From Candidatus Nitrospira kreftii (GTDB taxonomy: Bacteria; Nitrospirota; Nitrospiria; Nitrospirales; Nitrospiraceae): 64,000 nt of DNA. Below are positions 13,638 to 17,991 of this stretch, one piece after another. Location of the stretch: assembly GCA_014058405.1 (NCBI GenBank), contig CP047423.1, forward strand, positions 1,426,001 to 1,490,000, read 5' to 3'. Both the position numbers and the translations under genes were made by a program. The number at the start of each line of letters is the position of its first letter. Within the stretch, counting starts at the first letter, position 1. The notes beneath the pieces were generated by a model, which was not told the origin of the DNA, searched no databases, and was given only the letters and a program-made list of their open reading frames with translations.

Positions 13638-13796
13638 TCAGGGTTTCTTCGCCACCACTTTGCCGTTTTCCCACACATAGATCGGTGTCCCGTACATCTT
13701 GGCGGTTTTCCGGGCCGCCTTGGCGGCTCGGCGGAGTGCGCGGCCGACCGCTTCAGAAAAGGCCTTCGTCTCTTTCTTCCGTGTCGCTTTCCTCAT
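13638..13796 (-). CDS. 52-aa basic protein paired with the zeta-type gene, possible antitoxin
   Basis: A short gene: the ATG at 13796 overlaps the TGA of the zeta-type gene in ATGA, which indicates translational coupling. The protein is very basic at the start (MRKATRKKETK), has an Ala/Arg/Lys-rich helix (GRALRRAAKAARKTAKMYG) and ends in a short beta hairpin (TPIYVWENGKVVAKK). Small proteins of this kind often follow zeta-like P-loop genes in bacterial genomes, to my knowledge, and are candidates for the partner that restrains them. The classical epsilon antitoxin is not recognisable here. Function is inference from position. Confidence 0.7.
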   Translation of the reverse strand: MRKATRKKETKAFSEAVGRALRRAAKAARKTAKMYGTPIYVWENGKVVAKKP

Positions 13797-14328
13797 GGGC
13801 CTTCCTCCAGCAGTCGTGGAGCGTCGCCTGAATTCTCATAGACCGACCAGGTGTCTGCCAGTGGTCGATAGAGCGTATGAAAGTTGTGCCAGCTACGGTC
13901 GAAACGCCGGATGACATCGACACGAGGGACATCATGTCCACCTTGTTCGACCCTGGCCGCGACTCGTTCTAGTGAAAGCTTGGATGATAACAGAGAAAGA
14001 AAGACAATTTTGATTGTATACCCTGTCGCCTTCCAGGTCTGTAAGAGATGCAGGTATGTTCTTCCACTCAGAGTGCTCTCAAACGCAAAGTTCTTCCGAC
14101 CGCTCACCAAACGATAGAGCTCTTTGAGGACAAGCCGTGCTGTTGCCGCGAGGCCAGTTCTGGACGAAGAGGAGAAAGCCCGCTCGCAATCAGGTCGGCA
14201 TTCACGAAATGGATGACTCCAATCTCACCAAGTAGAAACTCTCTCGCGAACGTGGTCTTTCCCGAACCGTTGGGCCCAGCAATAAGAATGCAGCGAGGAT
14301 GTCGAGCCGGTCGGTCGCCTATTCTCAC
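13793..14328 (-). pseudogene. Zeta-toxin-type P-loop kinase gene interrupted by one frameshift
   Basis: The first frame (GTG at 14328) gives the Walker A motif [17 protein letters not shown] and [20 protein letters not shown], then runs out of register and stops at 14104. The second frame, entered near 14147-14153, continues with [29 protein letters not shown] and a C-terminus RRFDRSWHNFHTLYRPLADT. One missing base around TCGCGGC would restore a single protein of about 179 aa of normal length for this family. Family members phosphorylate UDP-N-acetylglucosamine or other small molecules. The start is 2 bp after the bioB stop, so it is transcribed with bioB. Either a true inactivation or a sequence error. 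Confidence 0.8.
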
Positions 14329-16847: not shown

Positions 16848-17222
16848 CTACACCGTCTTTTGTGGGCTTGCCTTCCGGACGAGGCGTCGTTTCGGTGGGG
16901 CGATTGGAGTCGACGATTCGTCTGGAATACGAACCCGCTGTGCGTCGTTCCACAGACGCTCGAGCGCATAGTGCGATCGGGAGTCTTCTCTCATGACATG
17001 AGCCACGACATCGCCGAAATCGATAAGGACCCATTGACCGGAAGCGGTGCCTTCGATGCTCAGCGGCCGTTGGCCTATACGAGAGAGTTCGTCGACGATC
17101 GAGTCAGCGACTGCGCGAGTCTGTCTGTCGGATTCAGCCGAACCAATGACTAAATAATCAGCGATCGACGTGAGCGGGGCGACGTGGAGGACTTGGACAT
17201 CAAGGGCCTTTTTCTCAAGCAT
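16848..17222 (-). CDS. rsfS: Ribosomal silencing factor RsfS
   Basis: 124 aa from the first ATG (17222). RsfS binds ribosomal protein L14 and keeps subunits apart when growth slows. Family motifs are VAPLTSIADYLVIGSAESDR, GQWVLIDFGDVVAHVM and YALERLW, plus a basic tail. The ATG product starts about a dozen residues short of usual RsfS N-termini. Fifteen codons upstream, in frame, an ATC at 17267 sits 6 bases after a perfect AGGAGG (17274-17279) and no ATG, GTG or TTG lies between. Translation from that AUC would supply the missing helix (IARTSKATALAAARA). The upstream part overlaps the end of nadD. Confidence 0.92.
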   Translation of the reverse strand: MLEKKALDVQVLHVAPLTSIADYLVIGSAESDRQTRAVADSIVDELSRIGQRPLSIEGTASGQWVLIDFGDVVAHVMREDSRSHYALERLWNDAQRVRIPDESSTPIAPPKRRLVRKASPQKTV

Positions 17223-17250
17223 CGCCCTGGCTGCGGCGAGGGCGGTGGCC

Positions 17251-17991
17251 TTAGATGTGCGTGCGATCGCTGTCCTCCTGATAAAGGCTATGCTGAAGTA
17301 TATAAGATTCTACCGGGGGGGGCAACATATTTGCCAGCGATAGTCTGCTCCGAATTTTCTGTCGAATGTCCGACGCCGAAATGGGACAGAGGGGCAGGAG
17401 TAAGCAGGTAATGCCTGAAGCATCAGGGACTGCAATTTCGAGCTTCTCGAGGACGCCGGCGTCAAGCTGTCTCAGAGGTTCTGGATCCAGATTGGAAAGG
17501 AACGGCGTCCCGGCAAGGGTTTGGAATAATCGCCCCGGCCGAGGCACAACCACGAAGTGGCAGAGCCTCAAGAGTTCTTCAGGCGCCCTCCAGGTTGGGA
17601 ATTCAAGAAACGCATCAAGCCCAATGATGAAAAATAGCTTCCAGGATCGACCGTACTGTTCTCGTAATTCACGAACTGTGTCGATGGAGTACGATTTCCC
17701 TGCGCGATGGAGTTCCATGGCCGACACGTCGAACACGGGAGTGTCGGCTATTGCAAGGCGCACCATTTCGAATCGTATTGGTGCGGGAGCCAGTGATCGG
17801 TTGTGTTTGTGAGGTGGGTCGCCGGTCGGGATGAAGAGGATGCGAGAGAGCTGCATGTGTTCGCGCACATCCCGTGCAATGGCCAGGTGGCCGTTGTGAA
17901 CGGGATTGAAGCTGCCCCCGAATAGGCCGAGGCGTTTCGAAGGTGCGTCTTGCGTGACGGCTATTGATTGTTCAGCGATAGGGTGATCCAT
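17251..17991 (-). CDS. nadD: Nicotinate-nucleotide adenylyltransferase
   Basis: 246 aa. It adenylates nicotinate mononucleotide in NAD synthesis. The nucleotidyltransferase signature GLFGGSFNPVHNGHLAIA lies at about residues 22-39 and the C-terminal SASDIRQKIR corresponds to the ISSTxIR motif. Further family pieces are FIPTGDPPHK and GKSYSIDTVRELR. The first about 20 residues are an extension beyond the usual start, so an internal start is possible. It follows proB by 25 bp and its 3' end contains the AGGAGG that serves rsfS, so the two are translationally linked. Confidence 0.95.
   Translation of the reverse strand: MDHPIAEQSIAVTQDAPSKRLGLFGGSFNPVHNGHLAIARDVREHMQLSRILFIPTGDPPHKHNRSLAPAPIRFEMVRLAIADTPVFDVSAMELHRAGKSYSIDTVRELREQYGRSWKLFFIIGLDAFLEFPTWRAPEELLRLCHFVVVPRPGRLFQTLAGTPFLSNLDPEPLRQLDAGVLEKLEIAVPDASGITCLLLPLCPISASDIRQKIRSRLSLANMLPPPVESYILQHSLYQEDSDRTHI

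Follow-up and report, generated by a model that had tools for sequence, protein, structure and literature searches.

The rsfS gene of Candidatus Nitrospira kreftii, encoded on the minus strand of the 64,000-nucleotide stretch of DNA analyzed here (the window), is very probably translated from an AUC codon at position 17267. Few bacterial genes besides infC are known to have starts outside ATG, GTG, and TTG, one reason being that gene-finding programs do not search for such codons. On sequence comparison, the AUC start of rsfS is an infC-like conserved non-standard start that extends through one phylum more widely than expected, and the comparative data alone point to a non-standard start that is conserved through the family Nitrospiraceae and frequent in the phylum. 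A link between initiation factor IF3 and ribosome silencing is thereby suggested.

Read from the ATC (17265..17267), rsfS occupies positions 16848..17267 of the minus strand and comprises 139 codons and a stop codon. Its product belongs to the RsfS/Iojap family of ribosome silencing factors, the curated cut-offs of which are exceeded along the whole domain for both PF02410 (E-value 5e-30, 104.1 bits against a cut-off of 21.6, profile positions 3-98) and TIGR00090 (106.8 bits against a cut-off of 56.9, profile positions 5-99), and it matches RsfS chains in the PDB by sequence. Members of this family bind uL14 and block the joining of the ribosomal subunits. The gene lies downstream of nadD (17251..17991, minus strand), an open reading frame (ORF) that exceeds the cut-offs of NCBIfam models NF000840 and TIGR00482, and the first 17 nt of rsfS are shared with nadD in another frame. 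The arrangement on which the original prediction was based, an AGGAGG Shine-Dalgarno sequence (17274..17279, minus strand) separated from the in-frame ATC by a 6-nt spacer, ACAGCG (17273-17268), is exact, and the rsfS frame contains no ATG, GTG, or TTG between the upstream stop codon (TAG) and the ATG at 17220..17222, which opens an ORF of 124 codons in frame with the ATC. Considered as a motif alone, AGGAGG-N6-ATC is within chance, with one occurrence in the window against 0.65 expected from dinucleotide shuffles, and the looser AGGAGG-N4..9-ATH is found five times against 8.6 expected; the case for an AUC start therefore rests on relatives. The start region showed no notable RNA structure on folding (z -0.12), and a promoter-like TTGCCC-17-TATACT element upstream (17297-17325, minus strand, within the end of nadD) is likewise at chance level (one found, 0.7 expected). 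Many relatives have a TATAAT-like sequence here, but the same bases encode a Tyr-Ile motif of NadD.

The rsfS gene was found in 166 of 175 Nitrospiraceae genomes, and 150 genes were readable with their starts (the loci of G150 and G034 were left out for runs of N, and both copies in G027 enter the count). The aligned start column of these genes holds ATC in 127, AGC in 22, and TCT in one (G010, L021), where the ATC has been displaced by a short insertion, so that ATC is kept in 128 of the 150 and the proposed AUC start is supported; neither ATT nor ATA occurs in the column in any of them. Although ATC is only one base away from ATG, its recurrence in all 22 genera read, from separate assemblies, reduces the probability of a sequencing or assembly error to practically nothing. 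A Shine-Dalgarno core (GGAG, GAGG, or AGGA) stands upstream in 146 of the 150 genes, and 115 lack any standard start from 12 codons upstream to codon 14. The 22 genes with AGC all belong to genus g24 and all carry a GTG directly upstream, a codon found there in only 6 of the 127 ATC genes, so that the loss of ATC has been accompanied by a neighboring standard start. Relatives with ATG exactly at the place of the ATC, which the original prediction had envisaged, were not found in the family, the nearest approach being this GTG one codon upstream. In g24 (L092, L095-L099, L134-L148, and others) the distance from GGGAGG to the GTG is only about 3 nt. The two rsfS copies of G027, which differ and lie on two contigs (L012 and L055), both begin with ATC; this genome may be a mixed assembly.

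As judged from the alignment, the start column is conserved as a codon and not as an amino acid. Among 31 columns in which at least 97% of 127 sequences share an amino acid that has a choice of synonymous codons, 30 use more than one codon and the ATC column alone uses a single one, while Ile elsewhere in rsfS is encoded by ATC 578 times, by ATT 307 times, and by ATA 38 times (923 in total). The sequences in this test were chosen as ATC genes, and the unselected 150 are equally free of the two synonymous codons at that place. A constraint on an internal Ile as an amino acid was rejected. The overlap with nadD, which could be anchored in 144 genes (six could not be), offers a second candidate constraint. 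The nadD frame reads through the ATC in 129 of the 144, and the base after AT there opens a nadD codon, in most cases one for Arg, which could help to preserve the C of the ATC. In the remaining 15 genes (genera g1, g15, g23, g25, and g27), nadD stops short of the ATC or terminates at it, with two different frames represented, and ATC is kept in all 15, in three of them as TAATC, which led us to reject the overlap as the sole constraint. The frequency of the overlap might also suggest that RsfS arises as part of a NadD-RsfS fusion, or through a frameshift out of nadD, with no initiation of its own. This is highly improbable given these same 15 genes and their two frames, and given that the rsfS frame upstream of the ATC is without coding signal and meets a stop within 12 codons in 26 of 127 genes.

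By the pattern of codon change among relatives, coding selection starts at the ATC. In codons 7-14, a segment that precedes the internal Met and in most genes is clear of the nadD overlap, the synonymous fraction of single-base codon changes is 0.62 against 0.31 expected, comparable to the 0.59 found in the body of the gene (both codons 16-30 and codons 31-100), whereas in the eight codons upstream of the ATC it is 0.26 against 0.27 expected. Stop codons within the 15-codon stretch that precedes the ATG (17223..17267, minus strand), named at the outset as evidence that would count against an AUC start, were not seen in relatives. This stretch is predicted to encode most of the first helix of RsfS. 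In an AlphaFold2 model of the window protein (mean pLDDT 92.2), computed with 31 aligned relatives, helix 1 spans residues 2-18 and is followed by strands and helices, in agreement with the N-terminal helix and alpha/beta core of the RsfS family.

These observations bear directly on the possibility that translation begins at the ATG at 17222, leaving the upstream codons untranslated and yielding an RsfS of 124 amino acids. The ATG is the first standard start in the frame, a Met codon occupies its position in 97 of 127 aligned relatives, and the shortened protein still scores 103.9 bits against TIGR00090. Against it stand the coding selection upstream of the ATG and the 30 relatives of the 127 with no Met at this position, among them a member of the same genus (L015) that has Leu there. 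In addition, the AGGAGG is positioned at the ATC and not at the ATG, and, as had been expected of the N-terminal helix, a start at the ATG would remove residues 1-15 and with them 14 of the 17 residues of the modeled helix 1. Relatives and model together lead us to reject the ATG as the main start, and initiation there is very unlikely; initiation at the AUC at 17267 is the reading retained here. Since the ATG is the first standard start, annotations of these genomes probably give a truncated rsfS.

What the original prediction did not see is the extent of the phenomenon: other members of the order and the phylum repeatedly show non-standard rsfS starts, and infC of these genomes also starts with ATC. 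Within a span from eight codons before to four codons after the aligned column, no standard start is present in 120 of 150 genes of the Nitrospiraceae (f1), in 7 of 7, 10 of 26, and 3 of 4 genes of families f2, f3, and f4, respectively, and in 7 of 9 genes from other orders of the class. The same holds for 34 of 61 genes from other classes of the phylum (a part of the matched loci, chosen by score or family) against 8 of 70 from other phyla (the best 80 matches of one scan, minus 11 Nitrospirota rows and plus E. coli; Fisher p 6e-8), and with a wider span (-15 to +9) for 26 of 61 against 3 of 70 in the same two sets. Two codons downstream of the Nitrospiraceae ATC, the 70 genes of other phyla often have ATG (24), TTG (10), or GTG (2), and the TTG of E. 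coli rsfS aligns there; in the 61 genes from other classes of the phylum this column most often holds ATA (15) or TTA (13). By alignment and spacing, f2 genes appear to start with ATA behind AGGAGG, and those of genus g3 in f3 with an apparent ATT behind AAGGAGCCGCCCT. We infer these starts, like the putative TTA, GTA, or CTG starts of other classes, with less certainty than the Nitrospiraceae ATC. Loci L231-L300, from other classes of the phylum, often have ATA or TTA at the start column without any standard start, and rsfS of a Planctomycetia metagenome-assembled genome (L335) resembles the Nitrospirota cases, with TTA behind GGAGGA at the start column. A tree of RsfS (155 rows) indicates at least 21 exchanges between standard and non-standard starts within the phylum, but its resolution was too low for gains and losses to be dated.

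The start codons of other genes provide a background for this pattern. In the source genome, infC (L200, at about G000:C1:3535514-3536011, outside the window) begins with ATC behind AAAGAGGTGG. In the 31 infC loci read (30 from a set of 57 genomes, and L200), the start is ATC in all 17 from the Nitrospiraceae and ATG in all 14 from family f3. The remaining genes surveyed start conventionally: a standard start precedes the first motif of nadD in all 48 genes located (49 loci searched), the gene downstream of rsfS begins with ATG in 49 of 49, and for hpf and for frr, each searched in 15 genomes, the conserved place holds ATG in 14 of 14 loci. Only one exact initiator-type anticodon stem-loop was found, with the anticodon CAU, the others carrying a mismatch, and on this ground we rejected the idea of a dedicated initiator tRNA whose anticodon is GAU.

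The most likely explanation of the rsfS AUC is a weak start against which, as in infC, IF3 would discriminate, the control by IF3 being an extension of established biology. With the third position mismatched, AUC would be read by the ordinary fMet initiator tRNA, so that IF3 would discriminate against the resulting 30S complexes and initiation would be weak. A strong Shine-Dalgarno sequence would partly compensate for the weak codon, as would the stop-start overlap with nadD that occurs in some species. The level of RsfS would then be low and would be expected to increase whenever free IF3 became scarce in proportion to 30S subunits. Because AUC is also the infC start in these genomes, the two anti-association factors, IF3 acting on the 30S subunit and RsfS on the 50S subunit, would be set by the same check. 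Conservation of so odd a start suggests that a deliberately weak start controls the amount of RsfS. Whether this involves a response to IF3 is evenly balanced. In its fullest form the model would describe a circuit in the Nitrospiraceae in which both mRNAs begin with AUC, IF3 represses itself and RsfS, and 50S silencing is tied to the balance of free IF3 and 30S subunits, with rsfS kept phylum-wide on very weak starts (AUA, AUU, perhaps UUA or GUA) where other bacteria use AUG or UUG; this we hold only tentatively, somewhat below even chances.

A nearly balanced alternative is that the ATC start has no regulatory meaning and either fixes a low, constant level of RsfS or is simply tolerated behind a strong Shine-Dalgarno sequence, which we consider a serious possibility at a little under one in two. 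The repeated switches between standard and non-standard starts noted above are in keeping with it, and two further observations limit the model of shared control. Family f3 combines an ATG start of infC with, in one genus, an apparent ATT start of rsfS, so that a weak start of rsfS does not require an IF3 loop common to both genes, and genus g24 has mostly moved to GTG, so that a weak start is not indispensable. Against the alternative, the strict identity of the codon throughout the family and its pairing with the ATC of infC look like selection for an IF3-sensitive codon. As between IF3-linked regulation and plain low-level tuning, the odds are about even. UUG is itself a standard start, and IF3 does not reject it as it does AUC. 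The same gene in E. coli is reported to begin with this weak though standard codon (PMC10917681), two codons from the place of the Nitrospiraceae ATC, which counts in favor of this alternative.

The comparison with infC places rsfS among known systems, as both encode anti-association factors and both have a conserved AUH start (AUU, AUC, or AUA in infC) behind a Shine-Dalgarno sequence. The infC start is described as ATT in E. coli and ATC in Streptomyces, and its autoregulation in E. coli as proven in the literature cited there (PMC5472188), whereas rsfS encodes another protein, for which we infer control by IF3. In vitro, more IF3 is reported to lower the yield from weak third-position pairs, for example AUC with UAU or AAU anticodons (PMC10158994), and IF3 in excess is reported to inhibit non-standard starts and re-initiation (PMC2268962). 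Outside infC, sigR of Streptomyces has a non-standard start that is described as mis-annotated in genome records and as repressed by IF3 (PMC5472188); sigR differs from rsfS in encoding a sigma factor, in starting with GTC and not ATC, and in that the effect of IF3 was measured. Conserved non-standard starts behind strong Shine-Dalgarno sequences are also described for cvfC1 (AUU) and ccpN (AUA) of Staphylococcus aureus, where AUU and AUA give about 10% of the output of AUG (PMC13009471); these are other genes, and their starts are reported as proven by Ribo-Ret and reporters. Literature searches found no paper on a non-standard rsfS start, and a preprint by Gvozdjak and Samanta (arXiv 2008.10758), cited in PMC9845219, might list rsfS among genes that avoid AUG.

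Elsewhere in the window, two adjoining ORFs in different frames (13793-14328, minus strand) together resemble one P-loop kinase, which we take from its motif to be of the zeta type, and they are perhaps a single frameshifted gene.
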